Source: Rhodocyclales bacterium (GTDB taxonomy: Bacteria > Pseudomonadota > Gammaproteobacteria > Burkholderiales > Rhodocyclaceae). Taken from it: 64,000 nucleotides of DNA. A model generated the notes under the pieces. The model did not search any database. It was not told where the DNA came from and worked only from the letters and a program-made list of their open reading frames with translations. Location: NCBI GenBank assembly GCA_028292505.1, contig JAQGMF010000003.1:62001-126000 (forward strand), in the 5' to 3' direction. Each line of letters begins with the position of its first letter. Positions within the stretch are counted from its first letter, which is position 1. Both the position numbers and the translations under genes were made by a program. Positions 39,929 through 64,000 of this stretch are shown piece after piece.

Positions 39929-39972
39929 CGTGTGCTTTGCCGAGAGCTGTTTGCAATTTCATAAGGTAATTT

Positions 39973-40782: not shown

Positions 40783-40834
40783 TCGGGCAATGGGCCGGGT
40801 GTGAATCATTGAGTGCGGAAAGTCCAGGTCAGAC

Positions 40835-43815: not shown

Positions 43816-44414
43816 AACGCGCATACGATTTCCTGATGGCGCTGCTTATGCTGATTCTGGCGTTACCTCTGTTGCTGCTGCTCGCGGTTCTAATCCGCGT
43901 GCGTTTGGGCTCACCCGTGTTTTTTCGACAGCTGCGCCCAGGGCTGCACGGCAAGTCTTTTATGCTATGCAAATTTCGGTCGATGAGTGATGCGCGCAAC
44001 GAGCAAGGTGAGCTGCTGCCTGACGATATTCGTTTAGGGGCATTTGGAGCGCGCTTGCGAAGTCTGAGCCTCGACGAGCTTCCGCAGTTGTGGAATGTGC
44101 TGAAGGGCGACATGAGTCTGGTCGGTCCACGCCCGTTGCTGATGCAATACCTTGCGCGTTACTCTTCGCGTCAGGCGCGACGGCACGAAGTGCGGCCCGG
44201 CATTACCGGTTGGGCGCAGGTGAATGGCAGAAATGCGCTTTCGTGGGAAGAACGTCTGGAGCTGGACGTGTGGTACGTCGACAATCGCTCTTTTCTACTG
44301 GATATCAAGATTCTTGTGATGACCGCGCGTGGAATTTTTTGCGATAAAGGTGTCAGCGCCAAGGGGCACGTGACCATGCCGGAATTTACTGGCAGCACGC
44401 AGGAGAAGCCATGA
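43812..44414 (+). CDS. Undecaprenyl-phosphate sugar phosphotransferase, PglC-like
   Basis: A 200-residue monotopic phosphoglycosyltransferase. The N-terminal re-entrant hydrophobic helix (YDFLMALLMLILALPLLLLLAVLI) is followed by SPVFFRQLRPGLHGKSFMLCKFRSM, the catalytic SLDELPQLWNVLKGDMSLVGPRPL (Asp-Glu dyad) and RPGITGWAQVNGRN. It would move a sugar phosphate from a UDP-sugar, probably a diacetamido-trideoxyhexose, onto undecaprenyl phosphate and begin a repeat unit. It is coupled by ATGA overlaps to the GT4 upstream and the acetyltransferase downstream. Confidence 0.95.
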   Translation: MKRAYDFLMALLMLILALPLLLLLAVLIRVRLGSPVFFRQLRPGLHGKSFMLCKFRSMSDARNEQGELLPDDIRLGAFGARLRSLSLDELPQLWNVLKGDMSLVGPRPLLMQYLARYSSRQARRHEVRPGITGWAQVNGRNALSWEERLELDVWYVDNRSFLLDIKILVMTARGIFCDKGVSAKGHVTMPEFTGSTQEKP

Positions 44415-46304: not shown

Positions 46305-47363
46305 ATGTCGATCGAACAAATAATTGTGCTGCTAGTTAGTTTCCTGATTTCCTGGGCGGGCTCTGCTGTAATGCGTCGTTACGCATTGTCACGCGCGATG
46401 CTCGATATGCCAAATGCAAGAAGTTCTCATGTGGTTCCGACACCGCGTGGCGGCGGTGTGGCTTTCGTCTTCAGTTTTCTTGCCGGATTATTGATATTGG
46501 ATTTTCTGGACAATTCCGAACTTTCTTTCAATTTCGCGTTGGCCGTCGGCGGCTTCATTGTTGCGCTGACAGGCTTTCTAGATGATCGTGGGCATCTGAC
46601 GATTCTCGTCAAACTTTTTTGGCACTTTGTCGCCGCCGTAATAGCTTTGGCTGCTTTGAGCGGGCAGGTGATCCCTTTGGTGGATGTCGAGCATGTGCAC
46701 TGGAGGACCTTCGGATATATCTTGGGTGTGATTGTGCTTGTGTGGAGTATCAATCTTTATAACTTCATGGACGGAATTGACGGACTGGCAATATCGGAGG
46801 CAATTTTCTTGGCCCTGGCCGGCGCGTTGATGATCCGGATCGCTGGCGGAAGGGAGATTGAGGCACTCCTATTGGCAGCGGTCTGCACGGGATTTGCTTT
46901 TCTCAACTGGCCGCCCGCAAAGCTATTCATGGGAGACGCTGGTAGTGGCTTCTTGGGGTTGATTTACGCTGTCATTGCGTTGCATGCCATGTTTACACTG
47001 CAGACAACCCTATGGCCCTGGTTGATTCTGCCCGGTGTGTTCGTCGTCGATGCGACTTTTACCTTACTTCGTCGAATGTTGACCAAGCAACGCTGGTACG
47101 AAGCGCATTGCAGCCATGCTTATCAGCGTGCGGCAAAGCGTTTTCGCAGTCATCGACGGGTCACTGTTACGGTGGTACTGATCAACCTTTTCTGGCTCCT
47201 TCCGCTTGCAGGCGCCGCACAGTTGCGGCCTGCTGAAGGGCCGTTCTATCTATTGGTTGCTTGGGCACCACTATTTTTTTTGGAAGTTTATTTTCGAGCT
47301 GGGGACATCCCGGCAAACTCCTCCAAAGCGGAAATCCGCCCCGAGGCCGAACCGCAGGTATAA
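46305..47363 (+). CDS. Polytopic sugar-1-phosphate transferase, WbpL/WecA-like
   Basis: A 352-residue membrane enzyme of the MraY/WecA superfamily with about ten spans. SRAMLDMPNARSSHVVPTPRGGG, the metal-binding VGGFIVALTGFLDDRGHL, NLYNFMDGIDGLA (about residue 150) and KLFMGDAGSGFLG are diagnostic. It would transfer a HexNAc-1-phosphate or FucNAc-1-phosphate to undecaprenyl phosphate. It is the second initiating transferase of the locus, structurally unrelated to the monotopic one at 43812, and may start a different glycan or use a different sugar. Confidence 0.93.
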   Translation: MSIEQIIVLLVSFLISWAGSAVMRRYALSRAMLDMPNARSSHVVPTPRGGGVAFVFSFLAGLLILDFLDNSELSFNFALAVGGFIVALTGFLDDRGHLTILVKLFWHFVAAVIALAALSGQVIPLVDVEHVHWRTFGYILGVIVLVWSINLYNFMDGIDGLAISEAIFLALAGALMIRIAGGREIEALLLAAVCTGFAFLNWPPAKLFMGDAGSGFLGLIYAVIALHAMFTLQTTLWPWLILPGVFVVDATFTLLRRMLTKQRWYEAHCSHAYQRAAKRFRSHRRVTVTVVLINLFWLLPLAGAAQLRPAEGPFYLLVAWAPLFFLEVYFRAGDIPANSSKAEIRPEAEPQV

Positions 47364-48591: not shown

Positions 48592-49665
48592 ATGACCATT
48601 CTCGTGACAGGCGGGGCGGGTTTCATTGGCGCAAACTTTGTGCTCGACTGGATCGAGAATGTCGGCGAACCAGTAGTGAATGTCGACGCGCTGACCTACG
48701 CTGGCAATCTCCGGACACTCATGTCGCTGGACTGCGATCCGCGACACATATTCGTGCACGGCGATATTTGCGATGGTGCTCTGCTTGGCTCTCTGATGGT
48801 TCGTCACAAGCCGCGCGCAGTTGTGCATTTTGCCGCGGAGAGCCATGTCGATCGCTCAATTCATGGGCCGGCAGAATTTATTCGTACCAACGTGACCGGC
48901 ACTTTCTCGTTGCTGGAATCGGCTCGCGCCTACTGGCAAGGTCTCGATGCGATTTCGAAGGAGAAATTCCGTTTCCACCACGTGAGTACGGATGAAGTCT
49001 ACGGCTCACTGCTTTCCGGCGAACCCCCATTTGCCGAGACCCGCGTTTACGAGCCAAACAGCCCTTATTCGGCGAGCAAGGCTGCTTCGGATCATCTGGT
49101 ACGCGCATGGCATCACACTTACGGGCTGCCAACCACCATCAGCAATTGCTCCAACAATTACGGGCCCTATCACTTCCCCGAAAAGCTGATTCCGCTCATG
49201 ATCATCAATGCGCTTGCGGGCAAGCCCTTGCCGGTTTACGGCGATGGACAACAGATTCGGGATTGGCTCTATGTTGCCGATCATTGCAGCGCCATTCGTG
49301 CGGTGCTCGCCGAGGGTAAGGTCGGCGAGGTGTATAACGTCGGGGGCTGGAATGAGAAGCCTAATCTCGATATCGTAAATACGATATGTGCCTTGCTTGA
49401 TGAGCTGCGGCCCGATGCAGCAGGCTCATACTCTCGTCTCATCACGTATGTGCAAGACCGACCGGGCCACGATCGTCGTTACGCTATCGATGCGCGCAAG
49501 ATCGAGCGCGAACTGGGCTGGCGACCGGCCGAAACATTTGAAACCGGCATCCACAAAACCGTGCGGTGGTACCTCGACAATCAGGAGTGGGTAGATAACG
49601 TGCAAAGCGGGGCCTATCGGGATTGGATGGCAAAGAACTACGCAGATCGCACGGCCCCGCCATGA
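48592..49665 (+). CDS. rfbB: dTDP-glucose 4,6-dehydratase
   Basis: This enzyme converts dTDP-glucose to dTDP-4-keto-6-deoxyglucose. The 357-residue protein shows [57 protein letters not shown] with the catalytic Thr-Asp-Glu, [14 protein letters not shown], and [18 protein letters not shown]. It overlaps rfbD by 4 bp. With rfbD and rfbA it supplies dTDP-L-rhamnose if an rfbC-type epimerase is available. Confidence 0.97.
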
Positions 49666-50549
49666 AGATATTGTTGCTGGGTAAAAACGGACAAGTAGGC
49701 TGGGAGCTGCAACGCTCCCTCGCGCCGCTAGGCGAGCTCGTCGCTCTGGATGCTGACAGTACCGACTTCTGTGGCGACTTCACCGATCCTGCAGGTCTGG
49801 CGCAAACGATACACGTGGTGCAACCGAATGTCATAGTCAACGCGGCGGCCTACACTGCTGTTGATCAAGCCGAAGGCCAGCCTGATATCGCTCACGCCAT
49901 CAATACGTATGCTCCTGGAGTGCTTGCCGAAGTGTCCCATAAGCTCGGCATTCTGCTTGTGCATTACTCTACCGACTATGTATTCGATGGCAGTGGCAAT
50001 ACGCCGTGGCGAGAAAGCGATTGCACCGGCCCGCTCAGCGTCTATGGCCGTACCAAACTCGAAGGCGAACAACGCATCGCAGCGACTGCTTGTCGTCATC
50101 TTATTTTTCGCACGAGTTGGGTTTACGGCGCTCGCGGCAGCAATTTCGCCAAAACCATTCTGCGCCTGGCAGGTGAGCGGGAAACATTGGACGTCATTGA
50201 CGATCAGATAGGCGCACCGACGGGGGCTGAGTTTCTCGCCGATGTGACTGCGCATGCCATCCGCATGTCATATAATCGCACCGATATCTCAGGAACTTTT
50301 CATTGTGCTGCCGCGGGCGAAACCTCTTGGTACGAATACGCGCAATTCGTTGTTGCGCGCGCGCGCGCATCGGGTCATCCTTTGAAGTTGAAGACCGTTA
50401 ACGCGATAAGTTCTGCAGCCTATCGCAGTGCCGCACACAGACCCCTTAATTCGCGTCTGAACACGCATCATTTTTCCGAAACGTTTGATCTGCAAGTGCA
50501 CCCATGGCAGAACGGGGTTGCACGTCTGATTGACGAACTTCTGGGCTAG
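49662..50549 (+). CDS. rfbD: dTDP-4-dehydrorhamnose reductase
   Basis: This enzyme reduces dTDP-4-keto-L-rhamnose to dTDP-L-rhamnose. The 295-residue protein has [69 protein letters not shown] (YxxxK) and [13 protein letters not shown], the standard RmlD pattern. It starts within the rfbB stop (ATGA) and ends 9 bp before rfbA. Confidence 0.97.
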
Positions 50550-50558
50550 GCAGTCATC

Positions 50559-51446
50559 ATGAACTCATCGACACGCAAAGGCATCATTCTGGCTGGTGGC
50601 TCGGGCACAAGGCTTCATCCCGTCACGCTTGCTGTTTCAAAACAGCTTTTGCCGGTGTATGACAAACCAATGATTTATTATCCGCTCAGCGTGCTTTTGC
50701 TGGCGGGGGTGCGCGAGATATTGATCATATCCACACCCGAGGACACGCCACGATTTCGGCAATTACTGGGCGACGGCAGCGCCTGGGGTATCAAGCTTGA
50801 ATATGCCGTTCAGCCGCGCCCGGATGGATTGGCGCAGGCATTTACGATAGGCGCGGATTTTCTGCAAGGAGGGCCTTCCGTCCTTGTACTCGGAGACAAT
50901 ATATTTTATGGCACCGAGTTGATGTCGAGGCTGCGTATCGCCGCGGCACGTGAAGCGGGGGCGACAGTTTTTGCATATCCCGTGAAAGATCCCGAGCGCT
51001 ATGGCGTGATCGAGTTCGATAGCGACGGTAGGGCCATCAGCATCGAAGAAAAGCCCGCTGCGCCACGCAGCCGGAATGCGGTGACTGGCCTGTATTTCTA
51101 CGATGCGCAGGTAGTTGCGATCGCGCGAGACCTCAAGCCTTCAGCGCGTGGCGAACTCGAGATTACCGATGTCAATCGCGCCTATCTGGAGCGGGGGCAA
51201 CTCAATGTACAATTGATGGGGCGGGGCGATGCTTGGTTGGATACAGGCACCCATGATAGCCTCATAGAGGCGAGTCAGTTCATCCAGACTTTGGAGAAGC
51301 GCCAGGGGCTCAAGATATGTAGCCCGGAAGAAATATGCTGGCGGAATGGATGGATCGGAAACTCCCAGTTGGAAGAGCTTGCCAGGCCTTTGCGAAAGAG
51401 CGGATATGGAGAATATTTGTTGGGTTTGATGAGAGAGCGTGGGTGA
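50559..51446 (+). CDS. rfbA: Glucose-1-phosphate thymidylyltransferase
   Basis: This enzyme forms dTDP-glucose from dTTP and glucose-1-phosphate. The 295-residue protein has [64 protein letters not shown] and [19 protein letters not shown], diagnostic of RmlA. It ends the rfbB-rfbD-rfbA unit. No rfbC follows; the next gene starts a different module after a 74-bp gap. Confidence 0.97.
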
Positions 51447-51520
51447 CCGTATTGCAGATTGCGGCTATTCCGCGTTTGCACTGCGTAACTTGCTGTTAGT
51501 CATTTTTACTTGTGAAAATC

Positions 51521-52462
51521 ATGAAAATTCTCGTAACAGGTGGTTGCGGTTATAAAGGGCATGTGTTGGTGCCAAAGTTGCTGAACAAGGGCTATGAAGT
51601 CATAGCGTTTGATACACAGTGGTTCGGCAACTATCATGAACCGCATGAGAATCTGCAAGTCGTCAAGGGCGATGTGCGCAACATAGAATCGATTCCGCTG
51701 GCGGGGGTTGACTGCATAATTCATTTGTCATCGATCGCCAATGATCCGTGCGGCGATCTCAACCCTCAGCTCACCTGGGAAGTCAGTGCGCTGGCAACGA
51801 TGCAACTGGCTGACAAGGCCAAGCGTTTGGGCATAAAGCACTTCATCTTCGCTTCTTCAGGCAGCGTCTATGGTGTCAAGGATGAGCCACAGGTTACGGA
51901 AGAGCTTGAACTCAAGCCCATATCCGAATACAACAAGACCAAGATGGTTTCTGAGCGGGTGCTGCTCAGCTATGGCGATGACATGACCGTACAGATCGTG
52001 CGGCCTGCGACGGTGTGCGGGCTTTCTCCTCGCATGCGTCTGGATGTATCGGTGAACATGCTGACAATGCAGGCCTTGTCGAAGGGGCGCATTACAGTAT
52101 TCGGTGGCGCGCAAACCCGCCCCAACATTCATATCGACGACATTACCGATCTCTATCTCTTCCTGATTGAGCACCCCCAAGTCACAGGTATCTACAATGC
52201 CGGCTTCGAAAATATATCCATCCTGGATATCGCCAACATTGTCACCAGGTATATTCCTGTCGATGTCATCGTCACCGAATCAAACGATCCACGTTCGTAC
52301 CGGGTCAATTCCGACAAGTTGCTTGCCACCGGCTTCCGGCCGAAAAAGTCCGTCGACGATGCCGTGCGCGAGATCATTGAGAGATTCCGTACGGGCTCCT
52401 TGAAGGACGAAGACCGTTTTTACAATCTCAAATGGATGCAGCAGACTGTGCTTGCCGCGTGA
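51521..52462 (+). CDS. NAD-dependent epimerase/dehydratase, first gene of the unassigned sugar module
   Basis: A 313-residue extended SDR: MKILVTGGCGYKGHVLVPKLLNKGY, HLSSIANDPCGDLNP, FASSGSVYGVKDEP and SEYNKTKMVSERVLL with the YxxxK pair, then RPATVCGLSPRMRLDVSVNML. The CGYKG variant of the glycine loop and the ANDPCGD motif are typical of a subgroup found in polysaccharide clusters beside sugar-phosphate isomerase genes. Substrate unknown. The ATG at 51521 is chosen over a GTG 9 bp upstream because it begins the conserved strand. It ends 17 bp before the SIS gene. Confidence 0.85.
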   Translation: MKILVTGGCGYKGHVLVPKLLNKGYEVIAFDTQWFGNYHEPHENLQVVKGDVRNIESIPLAGVDCIIHLSSIANDPCGDLNPQLTWEVSALATMQLADKAKRLGIKHFIFASSGSVYGVKDEPQVTEELELKPISEYNKTKMVSERVLLSYGDDMTVQIVRPATVCGLSPRMRLDVSVNMLTMQALSKGRITVFGGAQTRPNIHIDDITDLYLFLIEHPQVTGIYNAGFENISILDIANIVTRYIPVDVIVTESNDPRSYRVNSDKLLATGFRPKKSVDDAVREIIERFRTGSLKDEDRFYNLKWMQQTVLAA

Positions 52463-52479
52463 GGAAAACAGGAGTGAGC

Positions 52480-53064
52480 ATGGGGTCCAATGAAATTTTT
52501 TCCGGTTATGCTGATCGCCTGTCTACCGTGCTTGCCACAGCCAACTGGTCGCCGGTCGAGGCACTTGCGCTAGAGATGCAGCGTTGTTGGGTAACCGGCG
52601 CCAGGGTATTCCTGTGCGGCAACGGTGGTAGTGCCGGCAATGCGATTCATCTCGCAAACGATTTCTTGTATGGCATCGCCAAGCGTACCGGTGGTGGTTT
52701 GCGCGTCTCTGCACTTTCAGCCAATCCCGCTGTCCTGACGTGTCTCGCCAACGACGTCGGATACGAGCATATCTATTCCGAACAACTTGCCGTGCAAGCC
52801 TCTGCGGGCGATTTGCTCATCGTGTTGTCGGGTAGCGGCAATTCACCCAATATTTTGGCTGTGCTTGAGCAGGCAAGGAAGATGAGCGTGAAGTCGTGCG
52901 CCATTCTTGGCTATTCGGGCGGCAAGAGCAAAGCGCTTGCTGATATCCCCATACATTTCGCGGTGGATGACATGCAGATATCCGAAGATTTGCAACTTGT
53001 TGTCGGCCATATGCTCATGCAATGGCTTCACGCAAATCGACCCCAGTCCAATCAAGAGAGCTGA
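52480..53064 (+). CDS. SIS-domain sugar-phosphate isomerase, GmhA-like
   Basis: A 194-residue SIS protein resembling sedoheptulose-7-phosphate isomerase. RVFLCGNGGSAGNAIHLANDF and LLIVLSGSGNSPNILAVLEQA bind the phosphosugar, and EHIYSEQL and the C-terminal SEDLQLVVGHMLMQWL match the GmhA fold. It could isomerise sedoheptulose-7-phosphate or another ketose phosphate. A transketolase-like pair 1 kb downstream could make its substrate. The ATG at 52480 has GGAG six bases upstream. Confidence 0.88.
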   Translation: MGSNEIFSGYADRLSTVLATANWSPVEALALEMQRCWVTGARVFLCGNGGSAGNAIHLANDFLYGIAKRTGGGLRVSALSANPAVLTCLANDVGYEHIYSEQLAVQASAGDLLIVLSGSGNSPNILAVLEQARKMSVKSCAILGYSGGKSKALADIPIHFAVDDMQISEDLQLVVGHMLMQWLHANRPQSNQES

Positions 53065-53069
53065 CCCGG

Positions 53070-54056
53070 ATGCAAACCGTATTTGTTGTAGGCAGCAATT
53101 CTTTTTCCGGCGCCAGCTTCATCGATTTCTTGCTGGATCAGGGCCTGAATGTTATTGGAACCAGCCGTTCTGCTGAAACGATTCCCGCCTTGCTGCCATA
53201 CAAGTGGCGAGACCATTCGAATTTCAGCTTTCATCAGCTGGACCTGAACAACGATTTGCCCGCCATTACTGGATTGCTGAAGGACGTGCGTCCGGAATAT
53301 GTGGTGAACTTCGCGGCGCAGAGCATGGTGGGTGAAAGTTGGCAACATCCGGGAGACTGGTTTATGACCAACGCGGTCTCGACCATAAAGTTCCACGATG
53401 AATTGCGCAAACTGGATTTTCTCAAGCGTTATGTGCACGTATCTACGCCCGAGGTCTACGGAAGTTGTTCTGGTTTCGTGAATGAGGACTTTCCGTTCAA
53501 TCCAAGCACACCCTACGCGGTTTCTCGCGCTGCGGCGGATATGAGTTTGCGTACCTTCCGTGCCGCTTATAATTTTCCGGTTGTTACGACACGTGCGGCG
53601 AACGTCTATGGCCCTGGTCAGCAGTTGTACCGCATCATTCCCCGTACCATCCTGTTCATCATGCTTGGACGCAAACTCCAGTTACATGGTGGAGGTTCAT
53701 CGACGCGCTCATTCATTCACATGCGCGACGTATCGGAAGCGACATGGAAAATCGCGCAGCATGGTCGCGATGGCGATACTTACCACATCTCGACGGACGA
53801 GGTGATCTCCATTCGTGATCTCGTGGCGAAAATATGTTCGCGTCTGGAGGTCAATTTCGATGACCATGTCGAAGTGGTTGGCGAGCGACTCGGCAAGGAT
53901 TCTGCGTATCATCTTGATAGCAGCAAGTTGCGTAAAGAGCTTGATTGGCGTGACCATATTTCCCTGGATCAAGGTATTGACGCCTGTGTGCAATGGGTTC
54001 GCCAGAACTTCGATGCGCTAAAGAACCACCCCTACGACTACATTCACAAATCCTGA
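53070..54056 (+). CDS. NDP-sugar 4,6-dehydratase-like SDR
   Basis: A 328-residue extended SDR. TVFVVGSNSFSGASFIDFLLDQG is the dinucleotide loop, NFAAQSMVGESWQHPGDWFMTN, HVSTPEVYGSC and TPYAVSRAAADMSL (YxxxR instead of YxxxK) follow, then TRAANVYGPGQQLYRIIPR. The Thr-Pro-Glu in place of Thr-Asp-Glu and the Arg at the usual lysine position set it apart from RfbB or Gmd. It may be a dehydratase, epimerase or decarboxylase with changed chemistry. It starts 5 bp after the SIS gene and ends 2 bp before the transketolase gene. Confidence 0.8.
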   Translation: MQTVFVVGSNSFSGASFIDFLLDQGLNVIGTSRSAETIPALLPYKWRDHSNFSFHQLDLNNDLPAITGLLKDVRPEYVVNFAAQSMVGESWQHPGDWFMTNAVSTIKFHDELRKLDFLKRYVHVSTPEVYGSCSGFVNEDFPFNPSTPYAVSRAAADMSLRTFRAAYNFPVVTTRAANVYGPGQQLYRIIPRTILFIMLGRKLQLHGGGSSTRSFIHMRDVSEATWKIAQHGRDGDTYHISTDEVISIRDLVAKICSRLEVNFDDHVEVVGERLGKDSAYHLDSSKLRKELDWRDHISLDQGIDACVQWVRQNFDALKNHPYDYIHKS

Positions 54057-54058
54057 CT

Positions 54059-54883
54059 ATGGCTGATATCGCTGCGCTTGAAGGGCGTGCCCGCGTATTG
54101 AGAGCGCGCATTATTGAAACCTCATCACGCACAGGTACGCCTCACTTGGGCTCGTGCCTGTCGTGCGTGGACATTCTTACCGCGCTTTACTTCGAGGTAC
54201 TGCGCGTTGACATTCAGAACCCGCGCGCAATTGAGCGCGACCGTTTCATTCTGAGCAAGGGGCACGGAGCCCCGGCCCTGTTCCAGGTGCTCGCCATGCG
54301 TGGCTTCTATCCGGAAGCATGGTTGGACAACTACGGCGTAGACGGTGGCGTTTTCGCGGAGCACCCGCCGACGCCGGATCACCTGGCTGGCATCGAAGCA
54401 GCCACGGGCTCGCTGGGCCACGGCTTGCCGATCGGTCTGGGAATGGCGCTTGCGGCACGCGTGCAGCAACAGCGCTACAAAGTCTATGCGGTCCTCAGCG
54501 ACGGCGAGTGCAATGAAGGATCAGTCTGGGAGTCGGCGATGCTTGCTGCTTCACAGAAAGTCAGTGACCTCTGCGTCGTCGTTGACTTCAACAAATGGCA
54601 GGCTACCGGACGCAGCGAAGAAGTGCTCGCACTGGCTCCCTTGGCAGAGAAGTGGCGTGCATTTGGCTGGAATGCAGTCGAGGTGGACGGACACGACATG
54701 AACGCCTTGCTCGATGCTTTTGCAAGGTTCGCCTTGGGGGGCGAGCGCCCCACCGCAATCATTGCGCATACCGTCAAAGGCAAGGGCGTTTCCTTCATGG
54801 AAGATGATAACAATTGGCACTACCGCATTCCCACGGCGGAAGAGGTCGCAAAGGCCAAGATTGAGCTGGGAGTCGCAGCATGA
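54059..54883 (+). CDS. Transketolase-like protein, N-terminal (ThDP-binding) subunit
   Basis: A 274-residue half-transketolase. SSRTGTPHLGSCLSCVDILTALYF, FILSKGHGAPALFQVLAMRGFYPE, TGSLGHGLPIGLGMALA and VLSDGECNEGSVWESAMLA contain the thiamine-diphosphate/Mg motif (GDGE-like SDGE plus downstream Asn in DFNKWQATG). The pyrimidine-binding half is encoded by the next gene, with a 4-bp ATGA overlap, so they form a split enzyme. Such enzymes transfer two-carbon ketol units. In a sugar cluster this may build a ketose phosphate or branch a sugar chain. Confidence 0.92.
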   Translation: MADIAALEGRARVLRARIIETSSRTGTPHLGSCLSCVDILTALYFEVLRVDIQNPRAIERDRFILSKGHGAPALFQVLAMRGFYPEAWLDNYGVDGGVFAEHPPTPDHLAGIEAATGSLGHGLPIGLGMALAARVQQQRYKVYAVLSDGECNEGSVWESAMLAASQKVSDLCVVVDFNKWQATGRSEEVLALAPLAEKWRAFGWNAVEVDGHDMNALLDAFARFALGGERPTAIIAHTVKGKGVSFMEDDNNWHYRIPTAEEVAKAKIELGVAA

Positions 54884-55800
54884 GAAACGCCTTTGCAGAC
54901 GAAGTAACCAAACTGGCGAGTCAGGATGCCCGTGTCATCATGCTGTCCGGCGACATAGGCAACAAGCTCTTCGACAATTTCAAGAAGGTCGATGAGCGTC
55001 GTTTTTACAATTGTGGTGTGGCCGAAGCCAACATGATGGGCGTTGCCGCGGGCATGGCACTCTCCGGTCTGCGCCCCGTCGTATATACGATCACGCCTTT
55101 TACAACGACGCGATGCTTCGAGCAGATCCGCGTTGACGCTTGTTACCATCATGTACCTGTTACGATCGTTGGCACGGGTTCTGGCTTGTCTTACGCGGAG
55201 CTTGGACCGACGCATCACTCGCTGGAAGATCTGGCAATCCTGCGCACGCTTCCTGGCATGAGTGTTCTCGCTCCCTGTGATGCGAACGAGTTGCGTGCCT
55301 GCATGCGTGCAGCCTTGAAGCAAGACGGGCCGGTCTATATCCGTATCGGCAAGAAGGGCGAAGCCGTTGTGTTCAACGAGGTTCCTGCGCTGACGATTGG
55401 CAAAGTGGCCATCGTTCGCCCCGGCTCGGACGTGGCCTTGCTATGCGCCGGTACCCTGATGGCGGAAACCCTTGAAGCGGCTACTCAGCTAAATGCACAG
55501 GGCATATCAACGGAAGTGGTGAGCATGCATTCGATCAAGCCGCTGGACGTCGACTATCTGGCAGCCGCTGCAACGCGATTCAAGCTTATTGCCACCATCG
55601 AAGAGCATGGCCTCATCGGTGGGCTTGGCAGTGCGGTGGCCGAATGGCGGTCACGTGTCAATGCGCCGGTTCGTCAGCTTGCTTTTGGCACGCCGGATGA
55701 ATTTATGCATGAAGTCGGCTCCCAGGAATATGCCAGACGCAAATACGGGCTCACGGCGGGCGATATGGCGACGGCCGTCGTTAATGCGCTCAAGGGATAG
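54880..55800 (+). CDS. Transketolase-like protein, C-terminal (pyrimidine-binding) subunit
   Basis: A 306-residue protein with the pyrimidine-binding and C-terminal domains of transketolase. MLSGDIGNKLFDNFKK, FYNCGVAEANMMGVAAGMALSG (with the catalytic Glu of GVAEANM), PTHHSLEDLAILRTLPGMSV and GPVYIRIGK, then ALLCAGTLMAETLEAA and EEHGLIGGLGSAVAEW. It completes the active site with the preceding subunit. The pair is separate from any housekeeping transketolase and probably specific to the polysaccharide. Confidence 0.92.
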   Translation: MRNAFADEVTKLASQDARVIMLSGDIGNKLFDNFKKVDERRFYNCGVAEANMMGVAAGMALSGLRPVVYTITPFTTTRCFEQIRVDACYHHVPVTIVGTGSGLSYAELGPTHHSLEDLAILRTLPGMSVLAPCDANELRACMRAALKQDGPVYIRIGKKGEAVVFNEVPALTIGKVAIVRPGSDVALLCAGTLMAETLEAATQLNAQGISTEVVSMHSIKPLDVDYLAAAATRFKLIATIEEHGLIGGLGSAVAEWRSRVNAPVRQLAFGTPDEFMHEVGSQEYARRKYGLTAGDMATAVVNALKG

Positions 55801-55806
55801 ACTCCG

Positions 55807-56421
55807 ATGCGTATCGGTCTGGACTTTGACAATACCATTGTCAGTTACGACGCCCTGTTTCACAAAGTAGCACTCGAACAAGGCGTCGTACCGCAAGAAA
55901 CTGCAGTCAACAAACTGGCTGTGCGCGACCATTTGCGCGCAGTCGGCAAGGAAGATGTCTGGACGGCAATGCAGGGCTATGTATACGGTGCCCGCATGGA
56001 CGAAGCACAAGCCTATCCCGGGCTTCATGAAGCGCTACGTGCGGCCCTCGACGTTGGTCACACTTTATGCATCGTCAGCCACAAGACGCGACATCCTTTT
56101 CTTGGCCCGCAATACGATTTGCATGCCGCAGCACGCAGCTGGATTGAGCGGCATTTATTGTCGGGGAAGGACCCGCTTGTCGACGAATCTGCAATTTTCT
56201 TCGAGCTGACCAAGCCTGAAAAGATTGCGCGTATTGCGGCACTCGAATGTGATGTATTCGTGGACGATCTGCCAGAGATACTGCTGGCGGATGGTTTCCT
56301 GCCTACAACCCGTCGTCTGCTTTTCGATCCCGAGGCGCACCACACTGCCACGCTGCCGGCGGATATCGATAGCATGCAGTGCTGGCCGCACTTCGGCGGT
56401 TGGCTTCGTACGTTGCAATGA
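55807..56421 (+). CDS. HAD-superfamily hydrolase, probable sugar phosphatase
   Basis: A 204-residue HAD protein. MRIGLDFDNTIVSYDALF carries the nucleophile Asp6 and acid/base Asp8, CIVSHKTRH contains the motif II Ser/Lys region, and DVFVDDLPEILL supplies the motif IV acidic pair. A helical cap with KEDVWTAMQGYVYGARM lies between motifs I and II. It could dephosphorylate a sugar phosphate made by the transketolase/isomerase pair, analogous to GmhB. It overlaps the kinase gene by 4 bp. Confidence 0.85.
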   Translation: MRIGLDFDNTIVSYDALFHKVALEQGVVPQETAVNKLAVRDHLRAVGKEDVWTAMQGYVYGARMDEAQAYPGLHEALRAALDVGHTLCIVSHKTRHPFLGPQYDLHAAARSWIERHLLSGKDPLVDESAIFFELTKPEKIARIAALECDVFVDDLPEILLADGFLPTTRRLLFDPEAHHTATLPADIDSMQCWPHFGGWLRTLQ

Positions 56422-57449
56422 ATCTTCCGAATATCGCCGCACTGCTCGAGCGCGCTGGGCAATCGACCGATGTGCGCGAAATCCGGATGCTCGCCAACGG
56501 CGGTAACAATCGCACATGGTTTGTTGCGACCGCCAGCGAACGCTATGTCGTCAAGCAATACTTCCGGCATGTCGATGACAAACGTGATCGCCTGCGGGCG
56601 GAATTCGACTTCACGTGTTATGCCAATAGCATATTTCCTGACGCCGTACCGCAGCCAATTGCTCAGGACGCGCTCGAAGGTTTGGCGGTCTACCGTTTCA
56701 TTCCGGGTGAAGTCTTGAGTCCTGGACAAATTGCCCAGCCGGAACTGGACGCTGCGGCGCATTTCTTCCGCGTCATCAATGGTCCACAACGCATGCAAGC
56801 GGCGCAAAGTTTGCCTGAAGCATCCGAAGCTTGTTTTGCCTTGAGCGACCATCTTGCGCTGGTAGGGCAGCGCATCGTGCGTTTGCGAGAAGGCGCGCTT
56901 GATCCTGATTTCGACATGGAAGCCGCTGAATTTCTCGACAATCTGTCGCGGCGCTGGCATGCCTTGGAAGCAGAGGTCGTGGATGCTGCTCAAGACGCAG
57001 GATTGGCTATCAGCGAAGCATTACCGCAAGAGCAACGTTGCGTATCGCCATCAGACTTCGGTTTCCACAACGCGCTGCGTGATAGCAAGGGGACGATACG
57101 TTTTCTCGACTTCGAATATGCAGGCTGGGACGATCCTGCAAAAATGACAGGCGACTTTTTTGCTCAGCTTGCTGTACCAGTTCCTGGCGCGTACTTTGAT
57201 GAATTCGTGAGTGCTACGCTGATGCACTTTCCGGACGCGAGTGCTTTGTGCATGCGCGCGGCACTCCTGCGGCCGGTCTATCAAATCAAGTGGTGTTGCA
57301 TTGCCCTGAACGTATTTCTGCCTGTGCATATGGCCAGACGAAAATTCGCCAATCCGTCGCTGGACGAATCTGCGCTCAAACGCCAGCAACTTGCCAAGGC
57401 ACAAACCCTTTTCCAATCACTCGTACCGATCTCCTATGGCATACATTGA
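56418..57449 (+). CDS. Aminoglycoside-phosphotransferase-like kinase (probable sugar kinase)
   Basis: A 343-residue protein with the APH/choline-kinase fold. RMLANGGNNRTWFVA and YVVKQYFRH (ATP-binding Lys), LAVYRFIPGEVLSPGQ (hinge), and the catalytic-loop equivalent SPSDFGFHNALRD with IRFLDFEYAGWDDPAKM (metal-binding Asp). The usual His of the HGD catalytic motif is replaced (PSD), as in some sugar kinases of surface-glycan clusters, while Asp and Asn are kept. It would phosphorylate a sugar or alcohol in the module. ATGA overlap with the HAD gene. Confidence 0.82.
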   Translation: MNLPNIAALLERAGQSTDVREIRMLANGGNNRTWFVATASERYVVKQYFRHVDDKRDRLRAEFDFTCYANSIFPDAVPQPIAQDALEGLAVYRFIPGEVLSPGQIAQPELDAAAHFFRVINGPQRMQAAQSLPEASEACFALSDHLALVGQRIVRLREGALDPDFDMEAAEFLDNLSRRWHALEAEVVDAAQDAGLAISEALPQEQRCVSPSDFGFHNALRDSKGTIRFLDFEYAGWDDPAKMTGDFFAQLAVPVPGAYFDEFVSATLMHFPDASALCMRAALLRPVYQIKWCCIALNVFLPVHMARRKFANPSLDESALKRQQLAKAQTLFQSLVPISYGIH

Positions 57450-58107
57450 TCTCATGTCCGTGATTCACAAAAGCACCACGCGCGACTATCTCGCCCGTGT
57501 CAATGATCCCGACTACCCCAAGGCGAAGGCTGCTTTGTTGGCAAAACAGTGGGGGTTCGACTATTGGGATGGCGATCGCAAAATATGCTACGGCGGCTAT
57601 CGCTACATGGAAGGCCGTTGGGAAAAAGTAGCGCGGGCCATGGTGGAGCAGTACGGCATCAAACCGGGGGACCGAATTCTGGACGTGGGTTGCGGCAAAG
57701 GTTTCCTGCTCTATGACTTTACCAAGGTCGTGCCCGACCTGGAAATTCATGGCATCGATATCTCCGAGTATGCGATCGCCAATGCGAAAGAAGAGGTTCG
57801 GGATCGGTTACAGCTTGGAAACGCGACATCGCTGCCTTTTCCTGACGGTCACTTCGACTTTGTCTTCTCGATCACCACGCTGCACAACCTGCATTGCTAT
57901 GACCTGGACAAGGCCTTGCGCGAAATCGAACGCGTAGGGAAGAAGGACAAGTACATTTGCGTAGAGTCTTATCGTACCGAGGAAGAGAAAGCCAACTTGC
58001 TGTATTGGCAAGTCACTTGCGAAGCGTTCAATACGCCCGAAGAATGGGACTGGTGGTTCAAGCATACTGGTTATACCGGGGATCATTCCCTTATCTATTT
58101 CGAATGA
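57436..58107 (+). CDS. Class I SAM-dependent methyltransferase
   Basis: A 223-residue methyltransferase. SAM motif I is DRILDVGCGKGFLLYDF (ILDVGCGKG at 81-89), with GIDISEYAI as the acidic motif II and FSITTLHNLHCYDLDKALREIERVGK further on. The N-terminus (HKSTTRDYLARVNDPDYPK, GFDYWDGDRKICYGGYRY) is shared by a subgroup seen in polysaccharide clusters. The start at 57436 overlaps the kinase gene by 14 bp; an ATG at 57454 is an alternative. Target unknown. Confidence 0.87.
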   Translation: MAYIDLMSVIHKSTTRDYLARVNDPDYPKAKAALLAKQWGFDYWDGDRKICYGGYRYMEGRWEKVARAMVEQYGIKPGDRILDVGCGKGFLLYDFTKVVPDLEIHGIDISEYAIANAKEEVRDRLQLGNATSLPFPDGHFDFVFSITTLHNLHCYDLDKALREIERVGKKDKYICVESYRTEEEKANLLYWQVTCEAFNTPEEWDWWFKHTGYTGDHSLIYFE

Positions 58108-58115
58108 GGTAAGCC

Positions 58116-59165
58116 GTGGCTATTCCAAGAAAAATGAAAGCGGCCATCCTGGTTGAACAGCGCAAACCGCTGGTCGTGGATGATATCGAACTTCCTGAAA
58201 CGCTCGAGGTCGGCCAAGTGCTCGTCAAGGTGCACTTCAGCGGCATATGCGGCTCTCAGATTGGTGAAATTGACGGCGCAAAGGGCGAGGACAAATTTTT
58301 GCCACACTTGCTTGGCCATGAAGCTTCCGGCACGGTCATGGAGATTGGCCCGGGTGTAAAGCATGTCAAGCCTGGTGATACCGTTGTCATGCATTGGCGC
58401 AAGGGCTTAGGCATCGAAGGCGCGCCGCCGAACTATCGTTGGAAAGGAAATAAGCTCAATGCCGGGTGGATTGCAACGTTCAACGAGTATGCGATTGTCG
58501 CTGAGAACCGTTTGACGGCAATGCCTGAAGGCAGCGATCTGGAAGTTGCAGCGCTGTTCGGTTGTGCTGTGACAACGGGTTTTGGCGTGGTAGAGAATAA
58601 CGCCAAGCTGCGTATCGGTGAATCCGTTGTGGTGTTCGGCGCAGGCGGGGTCGGCCTTAATATCGTGCAGGCCGCGTCCCTGGTTTCAGCTTACCCTGTC
58701 ATCGCGGTAGACCTTTACGATGGCAGGCTTGATTTGGCGCGAAAGATGGGCGCCACGCATCTCATCAATGCGAGCACCGAGGATGCCGAGCAGGCCATTC
58801 GCAGCATCATCGGCGCGCAAGGCTTGGACTGTTTTATCGATAATACGGGCAATCCGAAGATTATCGAGCTCGGCTATGGCATGACGAAGGCGCAGGGGCG
58901 CGTCACACTTGTCGGCGTGCCAAAGAAAGGCAACAATATTTCGATCTATTCTTTGCCGTTGCATTTCGGCAAGCAATTGAGTGGATCACAAGGCGGCGAA
59001 GCCATTCCTCATATGGACATTCCGCGCTACCACCAATTGTTTCAGGCGGGGCGTATCAAGCTACGCGAGTTGATCACTGAGCGCTTTGTGCTTTCAGATA
59101 TCAACAATGCAATTGAAAGCATGCGCTCTGGAAGAGCAAGTGGCAGATGCCTGATAAGATTTTAG
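58116..59165 (+). CDS. Zinc-dependent medium-chain alcohol dehydrogenase
   Basis: A 349-residue MDR enzyme. GICGSQIGEIDG carries the catalytic-zinc Cys and LLGHEASGTVMEIGPGVKHVKPGDTV the conserved His-Glu. VVFGAGGVGLNIVQAASLV is the NAD(P) loop and DLYDGRLDLARKMGATHLI follows. The structural-zinc cysteine cluster of horse-type ADH is absent. It would oxidise or reduce a hydroxyl/keto group of a sugar or of a small donor. GTG start with GAGGTAAG upstream. It closes the module before the large fusion gene. Confidence 0.9.
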   Translation: MAIPRKMKAAILVEQRKPLVVDDIELPETLEVGQVLVKVHFSGICGSQIGEIDGAKGEDKFLPHLLGHEASGTVMEIGPGVKHVKPGDTVVMHWRKGLGIEGAPPNYRWKGNKLNAGWIATFNEYAIVAENRLTAMPEGSDLEVAALFGCAVTTGFGVVENNAKLRIGESVVVFGAGGVGLNIVQAASLVSAYPVIAVDLYDGRLDLARKMGATHLINASTEDAEQAIRSIIGAQGLDCFIDNTGNPKIIELGYGMTKAQGRVTLVGVPKKGNNISIYSLPLHFGKQLSGSQGGEAIPHMDIPRYHQLFQAGRIKLRELITERFVLSDINNAIESMRSGRASGRCLIRF

Positions 59166-59177: not shown

Positions 59178-62100
59178 ATGGGAATTTCCTTGCCATTTGC
59201 TGAGCAACACGTGACTGCTAAGGCCGTACTGGAGCGGCCCCAGTCGCTCCTATTTGTTACTTCTCAGCTAAGGCCACGCGAGCTTAAGATGGCGTATGGG
59301 TTGCGTCAGCTTGGTTGGGCCGTTGGCCTTATTTATTATAAGTGGACACCGTTTGATCCTGAGGCTTGTTTTGACTTCGCAATAGAAGCCGAGTCTGCGC
59401 AAAACGCACATGCTATGGCCAAGCAATTAGCTCCCCATATCACCCATGTGTTTTCGGGTGCAATCGATGAATTCGTCATGATGTTCTGTCGGGACAAACC
59501 GTCTCCCGTGGTAATTGATCTTAACGATGTTTTTGCCCCGTCACTATTTGACTATTGCCATGAGAGATTTGAGCCAACACGAGAAGCGCTGGCACTTGCC
59601 GACGGTTTTTGCGCGCGAGACTTGCAGATAAAATCAGCTGAAAAAATAGACAATTTCAAGTTACCTAGGCATCTGGTGTTGTTTCCAGAATACTGCGGGC
59701 ACACGCAACCGATGGTTCGTGAGCGCAAATATCCTGCTGATGAAGTTCATGTCGTTTCTGTAGGAACATTCAGCTTAGAAACCCAAGGAATGTACGACAG
59801 TGGCTATTTAAGGTTGGCTCATCGGCTGATCAATCATGGCATACACCTACACATATTTCCTCATTGGGCTTACCGGCGTGATCATGCAGGAAGTCCACAC
59901 GCCAACTTCGAAAAGGATTTTGCGGATTTTCTAGCCCTTGAAAAACTCTCTTCTTATTTGCATGTACATGAAAGTCTGCCTATAGATGAACTCGCCAAAA
60001 TTTTGCCTGATTATGATTTTGGAATTATTTCAGGAGGCTGTTCAGAGTTTGGCCAAAATCTAAAATTCTATCGCCCTGCGTATTTGGAGGCGTGTTATTC
60101 AGGGCGGATATCCGATTATCTGGAAGCCGGCTTGCCCGTACTCATCAATGATGAAGTGAAATTCGATTTTTGGCTTTTGAAGCGCTATGGCGTCTGCGCC
60201 GACTTGAAGGGTATTCTTAAGCCGGGATTCAAACGAGTTTTGCTGGATTTAAAGCATGATAAAGGCACGAAAGCGGCTATGGGTCGAGCAACTCAGCGGC
60301 TTTCTGTGACTGCCAATAGTCCGAGACTGGCCAAGTTTTATCTGGAAATCTTATCAGAAGGTACTTTAGAGGATAGAAGGGTCGATCCCATTAAGGGAGT
60401 CCCAGAGCATACGCATAATATTGTAGCGCCGAGAAGTTTTAGTATACGTGCTGTAAGCTTGATTCGAAAATGTATAAAATGGTCTTCCCCGCGAGTTGCG
60501 AAGATATTACTCCCTTATAGGGCCAGCCGGTTATTTCAAGTCCGATTGCATAATGCACTTCGCGACATTCAGTCTGCCCAAGCACTGATTGGCGCTTTGA
60601 AGGCAGAGCAGGAGACATTGCTGGTTCAAACTAATTCCCTTGAGTTGGCCAGAAACGCACTTGCCAATGAACTGAGAGGCGGTTATAGCTCAATTGCGCG
60701 GGGTCAGAACACTATTGCCATATTACATTCGGAGTTGGCTGCGGTGGAATTGCGTCGTTTGACGCACGCGAAAGAAATTGAAGCGCTGGAGCAGAACGGA
60801 CTAAAACTCGAACGAAATATGGTCTTGCTGCAACAAGAAAAAGCTCTTCTTGAGCAAGACAATGACGCACTAGAGCAAGCCAAAACTGTTCTTCAACAAG
60901 ACAAGGCCGTCCTTCAACAAGATAACGTCGTCCTTCAACAAGATAAGGCTGTCCTTCAACAAGACAACGTCGTTCTTGAGCAAAACAAGGCCATCTTTGA
61001 GAAAAATATGGCGCTACTTCAGCATGACAAAATCATTCTTGAACAGACAGGAGTCTTGCTTGGGCAAGATATAGTAGTTCTGCGACAAGACAAGGTCACA
61101 CTTGAACAAGACAATGCATTACTTGAACAGGGCAAACACCTTCTTGAAAAAAGTCTGAATGACGCTACCCAGGAAATAGATGCAACACGCAAGGCGGTAA
61201 GCTTGCTTAAAACCGAGGCTCAGGAGCTTGAAAGCAATAAAGCGAAACTGAAACTTCAAATCGGAGAGCTAGAGCAGGAGATAGAGAGTCTTAGGTTGCA
61301 TATAGAGGAGTCGAATGAAGCAAACGACAGCCTCCGTATTGAGCTTGCTATTGCGAACCAGTATGCAGATATGCAACAGTCGAAATTGGCGCAGCTTGAA
61401 CGCGAAAACGTTCTTTTATTGGAGGACGTTCAAGCCGTTAGGACACTTGCAGCCGAAATCATTCGCGATAAAAGAGCGCTGCGTGGGAGCTTGACAGAGC
61501 TGCGGACTACAGTTAGAGATTTATTGGAAGAGAAACAGGCGCTCACGCTGCGTCTCTTGGAGCAGGAGCGGAGGGCTCATATATTAAATAATGAGAAGCT
61601 AATGCTTCAACAAGAGACGCAATGGGGCAAAGCATCAATCAAGGAGGTTGCTGCCGCTCTGAATTGGCAAGAGGTGCTCGATAGCGTGGAACGAACAAAC
61701 GGATTCAATGAACTTGTTCGTATCCTTGGGCTTTTCTCAGGAAGCACAAATGTTGGTGATGCCGCTTCAGCATGTTGGGACGCTTTGGCTGCCAAGAATT
61801 ACGACCAGTTGTTGAATTTTGGTTATGTTAATTTCAAGCGGACAATTGGAAACAACTATTTCAATTTTCTGGTACAAGAAGGCGATCCGCAAATTCAAGC
61901 TGTCGAAAAATTACTTCCACCTGAAGTTCTGCAACACGCTAGCACAATGGCAATTTCAATTGCTCATGACCCCGATTTTCCGACGACCGATCAATTTAGT
62001 TATAGGTATTTCGTGCTATTGCTGTGGGAATATCTCAAGACGATTGATGTTAAGGGATATAGTCAAATTATTGAGGAGCCTTTGGATGGTAACCCCCTTC

Positions 62101-62723
62101 TTGTGCCGGTGAATGGCCGCAACCTGTCACAAGACTTGGCAAATTCTCTAATCGAATACTATTCAATCGATGATGCTGTGTCGTTCGAACATGTTAATTC
62201 CGTATTGGAAATTGGAGGCGGTTATGGTAGGAATGCCTACGTCATTCTTTCCATCAATCCAAATGTGCAAGTCACACTCGTCGACATTCCTCCTGCGTTG
62301 TATATAGCTGAGCGATATTTGTCATCAGTCTTCAAAGAGCGCCGTGTTTTCAAAGCTAGACATTTCTCCAAATACGAGGAAGTAAGAGATGAGATGGAGC
62401 GCGCTTCAATCGTTTTTCTAATGCCACATCAACTTGCGCTCATGCCGGTTGGAAAATTTGATCTTGGCATGAATATTTCTTCATTGCATGAAATGAGTAC
62501 CGAGCAGATTGACTGGTACTTTGGACAGCTCAATCGCCTGACCGCGAAATATTTTTATCACAAGCAATGGAATAGCTCCAGTAACATATTTGATGGAGTG
62601 GTAGTGAATAAAGAAGACTATCCTTATCCGAAAAGCTGGCGGGAAATTTATTCCCGTCCGTGCAGCGTACAGAATGAGTTTTTTGAGGCTTTATATCAGG
62701 TGAGCACAAGTGACGCCCAATAA
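59178..62723 (+). CDS. Giant fusion: glycosyltransferase-like domain - coiled coil - sugar methyltransferase
   Basis: A 1181-residue soluble-looking protein in three parts. Residues 1-430 resemble a GT-B glycosyltransferase: LLFVTSQLRPRELKMAYGLRQLGW, VVIDLNDVFAPSLFDY, and GRISDYLEAGLPVLIND in the donor domain. Residues 456-815 are predicted coiled coil, with 18 consecutive heptads at 537-662 of the type LxQDKxV/LxQDNxV. Residues about 850-1181 look like a sugar O-methyltransferase, with SAM motif VLEIGGGYGRN at 1009-1019 and VTLVDIPPALYIAERYL. There is no signal peptide. The DNA is visibly AT-richer than the preceding genes. The architecture recalls the coiled-coil molecular rulers of O-antigen terminators WbdD and WbbB, so a chain-capping, length-measuring role is possible. 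That is inference; the domain calls themselves are moderately secure. Confidence 0.85.
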   Translation: MGISLPFAEQHVTAKAVLERPQSLLFVTSQLRPRELKMAYGLRQLGWAVGLIYYKWTPFDPEACFDFAIEAESAQNAHAMAKQLAPHITHVFSGAIDEFVMMFCRDKPSPVVIDLNDVFAPSLFDYCHERFEPTREALALADGFCARDLQIKSAEKIDNFKLPRHLVLFPEYCGHTQPMVRERKYPADEVHVVSVGTFSLETQGMYDSGYLRLAHRLINHGIHLHIFPHWAYRRDHAGSPHANFEKDFADFLALEKLSSYLHVHESLPIDELAKILPDYDFGIISGGCSEFGQNLKFYRPAYLEACYSGRISDYLEAGLPVLINDEVKFDFWLLKRYGVCADLKGILKPGFKRVLLDLKHDKGTKAAMGRATQRLSVTANSPRLAKFYLEILSEGTLEDRRVDPIKGVPEHTHNIVAPRSFSIRAVSLIRKCIKWSSPRVAKILLPYRASRLFQVRLHNALRDIQSAQALIGALKAEQETLLVQTNSLELARNALANELRGGYSSIARGQNTIAILHSELAAVELRRLTHAKEIEALEQNGLKLERNMVLLQQEKALLEQDNDALEQAKTVLQQDKAVLQQDNVVLQQDKAVLQQDNVVLEQNKAIFEKNMALLQHDKIILEQTGVLLGQDIVVLRQDKVTLEQDNALLEQGKHLLEKSLNDATQEIDATRKAVSLLKTEAQELESNKAKLKLQIGELEQEIESLRLHIEESNEANDSLRIELAIANQYADMQQSKLAQLERENVLLLEDVQAVRTLAAEIIRDKRALRGSLTELRTTVRDLLEEKQALTLRLLEQERRAHILNNEKLMLQQETQWGKASIKEVAAALNWQEVLDSVERTNGFNELVRILGLFSGSTNVGDAASACWDALAAKNYDQLLNFGYVNFKRTIGNNYFNFLVQEGDPQIQAVEKLLPPEVLQHASTMAISIAHDPDFPTTDQFSYRYFVLLLWEYLKTIDVKGYSQIIEEPLDGNPLLVPVNGRNLSQDLANSLIEYYSIDDAVSFEHVNSVLEIGGGYGRNAYVILSINPNVQVTLVDIPPALYIAERYLSSVFKERRVFKARHFSKYEEVRDEMERASIVFLMPHQLALMPVGKFDLGMNISSLHEMSTEQIDWYFGQLNRLTAKYFYHKQWNSSSNIFDGVVVNKEDYPYPKSWREIYSRPCSVQNEFFEALYQVSTSDAQ
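60786..61163 (+). repeat. In-frame 21-bp (heptad) repeats within the coiled coil, including a duplicated 42-bp unit
   Basis: Eighteen successive 21-bp units encode heptads beginning with Leu (one Phe). The units at 60891-60932 and 60933-60974 are a 42-bp tandem duplication: both encode LQQDKAVLQQDNVV and they differ at 4 of 42 bases, all synonymous (GAC/GAT, GCC/GCT, GAT/GAC, GTC/GTT). Flanking units are progressively more diverged. The array is in frame throughout and could lengthen or shorten the helix in heptad steps by recombination or slippage. It is coding sequence, not a CRISPR or intergenic repeat. Confidence 0.92.
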
Positions 62724-64000
62724 AAATATTGTTGCCATTTATGATTTTGAGCTTTTCCCTTTTGCACTTGGAGATGTGCTGACGTGGAATGTACGCACGG
62801 CGATACGGTGTGAGGAGCTGGGGCGCGAGCATGTCGACATCTATATTTGTGCCGACGAGCGATATCCTGCCGGGGTGCATCAGCGTGGCATTATCAACGC
62901 ACGAAACTTCGACCTGTTTTTCAGTGAGTTGTATGGCGCATTCGGCACGCACCCACGGCTTGGGAATATCCACATTTTCCGCAATCGCGAGGATCTTATC
63001 GAACGGTTGCAAGCACTGGCCGTAGACGACGAGATGTGTGCTGAGGTAGTACGTGACTATCTCGGGGTACTCAACTACCGTGTGCTGGACAGTGTGCAGA
63101 ATAAGGCTCGACGGATCATCTTCAGCCGTTTGCGTGAGAACCGCCTGGTCAGGAAGTTGATGCGGCGTCGCATGCCCGCGCGCGTTAAGACACTTGTGCG
63201 CAATGCCTTTCTTCCGAACGAGGAAGTCATCAATGATTATTTCACCAAATACATATACTCCCACGAAGCCATTAATGCTTTCGCTGAGCGCCAGGGCGGC
63301 ATACCTTTACTGAAGGCATCGCTGGGCTGTGCTCCAGATATCGACGAACTGTTGGCGCACAGATTGGTCGGCAAGAAGATTGTGCCTTTCCACTTGCGTT
63401 TGCGTCGTCTCGACGGTGGATATGGTGGTGAGCACTCTTACTCACGGGATTCGGATTTTCTCGAGTGGTATGACTTCCTTGCTGAGGCTGCCATTCGCCA
63501 CCCGGACGTTGAGTTTGTCGCGCTTGGTCGGTTGCAGGAAAAACCGCTGGAATTGCTACGCCTTCCCAACGTTACTAGCTTGCGCATTTTAGGGCTGGGC
63601 TTGGGGCACGAATTGACACTCATGCTACGGAGCGATCTTTTCATTGGTACCTCTAGTGGTTTCGCGGCATTGGCCAATTTCTCGGCTATTCCCTATTTCA
63701 TTACGCGCATGACTGCGGGGTCGTGCCAGGCTTATGCCATCTCGGAGGGCGCCGATTCGCTCCCATTTGCGCGCTCCGGCCAGACGTTGATCTATGAGCA
63801 GGAAACTTCGGAGCTGCTGATGCGGCTGTTGGAGAGCGGCCTCGGTCGCCGTGGTGCGGTGCCGGTCTGTACTGAGGCGCGGAGCGATCCTCTCACGAGC
63901 GCGGTCGATGTGCGTGCCTGGCTCAATTCGCGTCTGCAGCTAATGAATTCCGCCGCAACAACCTATCGTTTTTTTACCAATGACGGTTACAGACGCAATG
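62710..64000 (+). CDS. Putative glycosyltransferase, 3' end beyond the window
   Basis: An open frame of at least 430 codons runs from a GTG at 62710 to the window end without a stop. It overlaps the fusion gene by 14 bp and has AGGTGAG about six bases before the GTG. The N-terminus (NIVAIYDFELFPFALGDVLTWNVRTAIRCEELG) and a DLFIGTSSGFAALANFSAIPYFI segment near residue 320 suggest a GT-B-like sugar transferase, the latter resembling the donor-site SSG/TSSGF loops of several families. An Arg-rich stretch (about residues 140-175) lies between. I cannot name a family. It returns to GC-richer composition. Confidence 0.65.
   Translation, partial: MTPNKNIVAIYDFELFPFALGDVLTWNVRTAIRCEELGREHVDIYICADERYPAGVHQRGIINARNFDLFFSELYGAFGTHPRLGNIHIFRNREDLIERLQALAVDDEMCAEVVRDYLGVLNYRVLDSVQNKARRIIFSRLRENRLVRKLMRRRMPARVKTLVRNAFLPNEEVINDYFTKYIYSHEAINAFAERQGGIPLLKASLGCAPDIDELLAHRLVGKKIVPFHLRLRRLDGGYGGEHSYSRDSDFLEWYDFLAEAAIRHPDVEFVALGRLQEKPLELLRLPNVTSLRILGLGLGHELTLMLRSDLFIGTSSGFAALANFSAIPYFITRMTAGSCQAYAISEGADSLPFARSGQTLIYEQETSELLMRLLESGLGRRGAVPVCTEARSDPLTSAVDVRAWLNSRLQLMNSAATTYRFFTNDGYRRN

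Follow-up and report, generated by a model that had tools for sequence, protein, structure and literature searches.

A candidate chain-terminating ruler with inverted domain order at an ABC-exported polysaccharide locus of a Rhodocyclales bacterium

The presence of a coiled-coil protein is a characteristic marker of the capping strategy in polysaccharide export by ATP-binding cassette (ABC) transporters (PMC11231755). A Wzt with a cap-binding domain is expected where export requires a capped chain, and the known caps recognized by Wzt include O-methyl sugars (PMC9445017). Among the described terminators, WbdD of Escherichia coli O9a/O8 is a trimer with an N-terminal cap enzyme (a methyltransferase, with or without a kinase), a coil reported at about 20 nm (PMC5082667), an amphipathic membrane-associated helix at the coil end away from the cap (PMC11231755), and a separate polymerase, WbdA. 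WbbB of Klebsiella pneumoniae O12 and Raoultella places an N-terminal 3-deoxy-D-manno-oct-2-ulosonic acid (Kdo) transferase, a coil, and two C-terminal glycosyltransferases (GTs) in one polypeptide. ORF6 of K. pneumoniae O7 unites a methyltransferase-kinase, a coiled coil, and two GT2 modules (PMC11231755). Here, we analyze a window of 64,000 nucleotides from a Rhodocyclales bacterium (contig JAQGMF010000003.1, G000:C22, positions 62001 to 126000), in which one gene encodes a GT-like head, a long coil, and a sugar methyltransferase. Of the systems known, it comes closest in its proposed mechanism to WbdD, WbbB, and, most of all, the O7 ORF6.

We propose, with a probability of about 0.72, that this protein acts as the chain-terminating ruler for a polysaccharide exported by an ABC transporter, probably the lipopolysaccharide (LPS) O-antigen, with elongation at the membrane, methylation at the tip, and export gated by Wzt. 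Judged from its sequence, the protein most likely combines a membrane-docked sugar transferase, a rod-like spacer, and a distal methyl-adding cap enzyme, which together would decide chain length. The head would dock on the inner membrane through a basic amphipathic junction and help to elongate the lipid-linked glycan, while the presumably oligomeric coil would project the methyltransferase tens of nanometers into the cytoplasm. The terminal sugar would be O-methylated only once the growing nonreducing end reaches the tip. This cap would halt elongation, and the C-terminal domain of Wzt would read it and admit the chain to export. We favor this reading because Wzm and a Wzt with a cap-binding Wzt_C domain are encoded downstream on the same strand, here and in a sister species; because the tail belongs to a methyltransferase family and published O-methyl caps are read by Wzt; because the same head carries a different end-modifying enzyme in the sister species; because head and tail are conserved around a coil of variable length and sequence; because the basic amphipathic junction adjoins the head; because a block of 82% DNA identity extends from the end of the coil across the cap and on into a disrupted gene; and because no Wzz maps to the contig of the ruler.

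Residues 971-1130, in the tail, match the NCBIfam family TIGR04371 (NanM), putative sugar O-methyltransferases, scoring 122.8 bits where the cut-off is 44 (E=1.8e-35), a match that spans profile positions 114-273 only. The first-pass annotation had recognized a C-terminal sugar methyltransferase with the motif VLEIGGGYGRN, and this holds. The Pfam matches of the C-terminal part are methyltransferases, all weak, and its Protein Data Bank (PDB) matches contain no WbdD entries. No kinase domain was recognized in the 1181-residue protein with Pfam or NCBIfam. The other matches above the TIGR04371 cut-off in 369 genomes of the class are short frames (223-415 aa), unfused to a coil and a GT.

As the earlier description of a single frame implies, the reading frame is intact, from an ATG start and without internal stop. 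A relative is co-linear with it over its full length. This relative comes from RYN_555, a metagenome-assembled genome (MAG) of Rhodocyclales (JAQGMG010000005.1) representing a sister species of the same genus, and the only match in a search of genome contigs with the head. In 300 genomes of the same order, the head was found nowhere but in the genome of the window. The fusion is restricted to this genus among the genomes sampled. The RYN_555 ortholog is of the methyl type (1264 aa). Directly after it, in tandem, lies a paralog of 1074 aa with a head about 65% identical and its own coil, the tail of which is a sulfotransferase (PF00685, E=2.1e-13; PAPS-type motif PKSGSTWL, PAPS being 3'-phosphoadenosine-5'-phosphosulfate). 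By family assignment, a sugar-modifying catalytic domain is thus placed at one end of the coil in both types of protein. We found no report of a sulfate cap or a sulfotransferase terminator in the literature searched. The O-antigen cluster of Aeromonas salmonicida has a separate sulfotransferase gene beside wzt and wbbB, and no sulfate was detected there (PMC4483657). A free-standing homolog (48% identity) of the RYN_555 sulfotransferase is encoded after wzt in the genome of the window.

The coil measures 348 residues between conserved anchors (436 in the ortholog and 363 in the paralog), has no proline, and consists to 45% of K, E, D, R, Q, and N. Its hydrophobic power at period 3.5 reaches 2.86, whereas 300 shuffles peak at 1.69; the coils of the two relatives give 4.41 against 1.37 and 2.74 against 1.24. 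This periodicity refers to a spectral test on the coil alone; when scored by simple heptad windows, the whole protein did not exceed its shuffles. At the level of sequence, the earlier claim of a long coiled coil between the domains stands. At 0.1485 nm per residue, 52 nm is its upper bound if continuous. The effective length may be smaller, as a GG pair near residues 500-502, which probably breaks the helix, is joined by further breaks in a structural model. Between the two methyl-type orthologs, the coil is 31% identical with large indels, compared with 72% for the head and 84% for the tail. We read the coil as a spacer for this reason: such alignments show the pattern expected of an element free in sequence and fixed at both ends. 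The most regular part of the coil coincides with a tandem DNA repeat (21 bp x 4.9). The coil of the ortholog contains another array, in which 3.1 copies of a 126-bp unit, each worth six heptads, match at 93%. These in-register repeats suggest a simple mutational route to altered surface-sugar length. The units of the repeats in the coil DNA of the two orthologs measure 21 and 126 bp. For the net difference in coil length, however, the idea of whole heptads was dropped, since the distance between anchors changes by 88 residues (436-348), which is not divisible by 7.

Long coils often serve for oligomerization, and this opens another explanation: a bifunctional repeat-unit enzyme whose head contributes a sugar and whose methyltransferase modifies a residue within the chain, with a coil that only oligomerizes the protein or tethers it to partners and a chain length set elsewhere. 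The other methyltransferases of the window (36726-37514 and 39973-40782) look like decoration or sugar-building enzymes, and the domain order is reversed relative to every characterized terminator compared. We nevertheless consider it unlikely. The coil is much longer than oligomerization requires, with no constraint on its sequence and both ends kept, the paralog replaces the end enzyme by a sulfotransferase on the same chassis, and the locus has a Wzt cap-binding domain.

Where, then, would the head of the proposed ruler be placed, and what is it? Pfam and NCBIfam searches assign it to no family. A three-row profile of the head retrieves distant proteins in other genomes, mostly matching its second half, some of which have weak matches to GT-B families in Pfam. 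When distant relatives are included, the profile matches the GT-B glucosyltransferase Gtf3 (PDB 9hu9, also 3qkw; E=4e-8 for 9hu9) over about 90 residues of the second Rossmann half. The similarity is consistent but weak, and Gtf3 is not close kin of the head. A low-confidence AlphaFold model shows an alternating order of strands and helices. The head is probably a GT-B enzyme, without a named family or an assigned sugar, and the earlier label of a GT-B-like region was a fair one that rests on distant similarity. Between head and coil, residues 418-461 have a net charge of +10 in a protein whose other parts are all acidic, and are predicted to have its highest lipid-binding discriminant. The same position is at +11 and +8 in the two relatives, although in the sulfotransferase paralog other segments outscore it on the discriminant. 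Because this basic amphipathic stretch lies at the GT/coil junction, we place, by analogy with WbdD, the head on the membrane side and the methyltransferase at the far tip; sequence features of this kind suggest the arrangement. The same predicted segment, by putting the head and not the tail on the membrane side, speaks against a head that is itself the terminator, adding a special last sugar which the methyltransferase marks for Wzt while the coil provides flexible reach and not a ruler. This alternative has precedents, since the Kdo transferases of WbbB and O4 ORF7 are known terminating GTs on coiled coils (PMC11231755), and the head falls in no known polymerase family. Still, we regard it as improbable.

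The comparison of the two methyl-type rulers at the DNA level points to an additional process. Their heads are 68.6% identical, and a single block of 82% identity starts at ruler nucleotide 2415, the coil/cap border, and runs through the methyltransferase about 340 bp into the next gene. That gene, which in the genome of the window encodes a 780-aa protein, extends past the window end, and in RYN_555 the downstream piece of the block is a frameshifted fragment of it, 84% identical to the gene of the window versus 72.5% to the intact copy of RYN_555 itself. The fragment is followed by a 106-bp fragment of a dehydrogenase gene and then by the sulfotransferase ruler. The scar left by these fused fragments, between the methyl ruler and the sulfate ruler, lies at L020:7944-8414. 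Synonymous differences per 60-codon stretch are 0.77-1.08 in the head and 0.46-0.64 in the tail, with 0.71-0.85 in the other genes of the locus. On the simplest reading of these sequences, the methyl-cap module would have moved between lineages together with its downstream flank, later than the head did, the breakpoint falling at the end of the coil or close to it. Part of the signal in the tail could stem from a common codon bias or from stronger constraint, but neither accounts for the 84% identity of a broken fragment. The two rulers of RYN_555 would then be the product of a merger between methyl-type and sulfate-type loci. The scar is consistent with cap swapping, and caps appear exchangeable between chassis. 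Taken further, this could describe a modular terminator, in which one GT-coil chassis receives methyl or sulfate caps by recombination at the coil/cap border and the coil drifts in length through duplication of heptad-sized DNA repeats. We hold this wider model tentatively, at somewhat less than even odds. If true, chain length would evolve separately from the kind of cap, and RYN_555 would operate a pair of rulers in parallel that differ in length and cap chemistry.

The surroundings of the gene (Table 1) fit a terminator. A check for export genes past position 64000 had been suggested, and both wzm and wzt were found a few kilobases beyond the end of the window. The noted lack of a Wzz-type regulator within it was confirmed: the only two Wzz matches of the genome are on other contigs. 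RYN_555 has the same downstream arrangement. The Wzt_C domain (PF14524) is recognized with E=1.1e-20. The best solved match of the C-terminal part of Wzt is 2r5o (E=1.8e-5), titled "Putative ATP binding component of ABC-transporter," which we take to be the cap-binding domain of an E. coli O9a-type Wzt; this homology is a further likeness to the WbdD system. Between the two species, the ATPase core of Wzt is about 73-80% identical and the C-terminal half only 24-57%, which looks as if cap recognition had diverged. Upstream, a WecA-type transferase and rhamnose genes are the supply side of the glycan. These genes, together with a WaaL/Wzy_C-type protein on the same contig, argue for LPS. The product could alternatively be a capsule-like or other ABC-exported surface glycan: an MBOAT acyltransferase gene follows wzt, and another ABC glycan locus, equipped with a Wzt_C of its own, lies on the same contig. 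We think this rather unlikely, and it would leave the terminator mechanism unchanged.

Table 1. Features of the ruler gene and its locus. Plain coordinates refer to the window, C22 coordinates to the contig.
Feature	Position	Strand	Support
GT-coil-methyltransferase gene, proposed chain terminator/ruler	59178..62723	+	Intact open reading frame; co-linear 1264-aa ortholog in RYN_555
N-terminal GT-B-like head, residues 1-417	59178..60428	+	63-71% identity in two relatives; distant homologs; Gtf3 match
Basic amphipathic junction, residues 418-461, candidate membrane-docking segment	60429..60560	+	Net charge +10; lipid-binding discriminant
Coiled-coil spacer, residues 462-809, 348 residues	60561..61604	+	Proline-free; heptad periodicity
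21-bp tandem repeat, 4.9 copies, one heptad per unit	60891..60992	+	Tandem Repeats Finder (TRF) score 127-155
Partial second repeat array in coil	61085-61129	+	
C-terminal cap module, NanM-type sugar O-methyltransferase, residues 810-1181	61605..62720	+	TIGR04371; 84% identity in relative
S-adenosylmethionine (SAM)-binding motif I VLEIGGGYGRN, residues 1009-1019	62202..62234	+	Sequence; invariant in ortholog
780-aa gene, no Pfam family, GT-like by eye	62710..64000, ends C22:127052	+	
wzm	C22:127058-127915	+	PF01061
wzt with Wzt_C	C22:130069-131598	+	PF00005, PF14524
Zinc-dependent dehydrogenase, directly upstream of ruler gene	58116..59165	+	PF00107/PF08240
WecA-type initiating transferase	46305-47363	+	PF00953
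RmlB/RmlD/RmlA-like genes for deoxythymidine diphosphate (dTDP)-rhamnose	48592-51446	+	PF16363, PF04321, PF00483

Several points weigh against a chain-terminating ruler. The head belongs to no family of known activity, and the target of the methyltransferase could be a sugar within the chain instead of its end. The nominal coil of 52-65 nm is 2.5-3x the ~20 nm of WbdD. AlphaFold gave a mean pLDDT (predicted local distance difference test) of 38 for the head (3 rows) and 36 for the full protein (2 rows), and the low-confidence monomer has a helix broken at about 502, 614-628, and 733-743. Finally, should both caps be in use in RYN_555, a single Wzt binding domain would have to take either.

How does the proposed ruler differ from those already described? 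Like WbdD, it would carry a methyl-capping enzyme on an extended coil, the opposite end of which has a predicted amphipathic membrane segment. Its methyltransferase, however, is C-terminal and of NanM type, not N-terminal and WbdD-homologous, and the protein is grouped with the coiled-coil terminators by mechanism and not as a WbdD. It would share with WbbB the separation of polymerization and termination modules by a coil in one polypeptide, in the opposite order. The O7 ORF6 also has a cap methyltransferase and a GT at opposite coil ends, in a wzm/wzt locus with rhamnose genes, but its domain order is the reverse, and it has an added kinase, a binding module, and two GT2 polymerase modules, where our protein has a single GT-B-like head. 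Hence, the first-pass proposal of a new member of the ruler idea is supported as regards termination, but a ruler combining a GT with a methyl cap had been published; the methyltransferase-coil-GT principle is already known from this protein. What is new are the inverted domain order, the enzyme families with a NanM-type cap, the sulfotransferase variant, and the evidence of cap swapping. The strategy of O-antigen length control by molecular rulers would be extended to an inverted architecture, and a candidate sulfate cap added to it. The natural variants, with coils of 348, 363, and 436 residues, methyl or sulfate caps, and related heads, make the ideas on ruler length and cap reading by Wzt testable outside enterics.

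Other observations concern the neighborhood. By eye, a stretch GW-P--W... recurs in the 780-aa GT-like protein (L009:4710-7052) and in the product of the MBOAT-adjacent gene (L009:15469-17070), and both may bind the same glycan. Between the rhamnose genes and the ruler, the window encodes at 51512-58107 a GmhA-like isomerase, split transketolase N/C subunits, a HAD protein, an APH-type kinase, nucleotide-sugar dehydratases, and a methyltransferase, an unusual sugar-building set that suggests a rare ketose-derived or branched sugar. A Wzx-type flippase and a PglC-type initiating transferase at 38390-44414 seem to form part of another glycan cluster, flippase-dependent and lying immediately upstream of the ABC-type one. 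The second ABC glycan locus (C22:44667-51272, minus strand), with its own Wzt_C ATPase, encodes an 899-aa fusion of a GT4, a short coil (about 463-570), and a GT2, possibly another terminator/polymerase arrangement.
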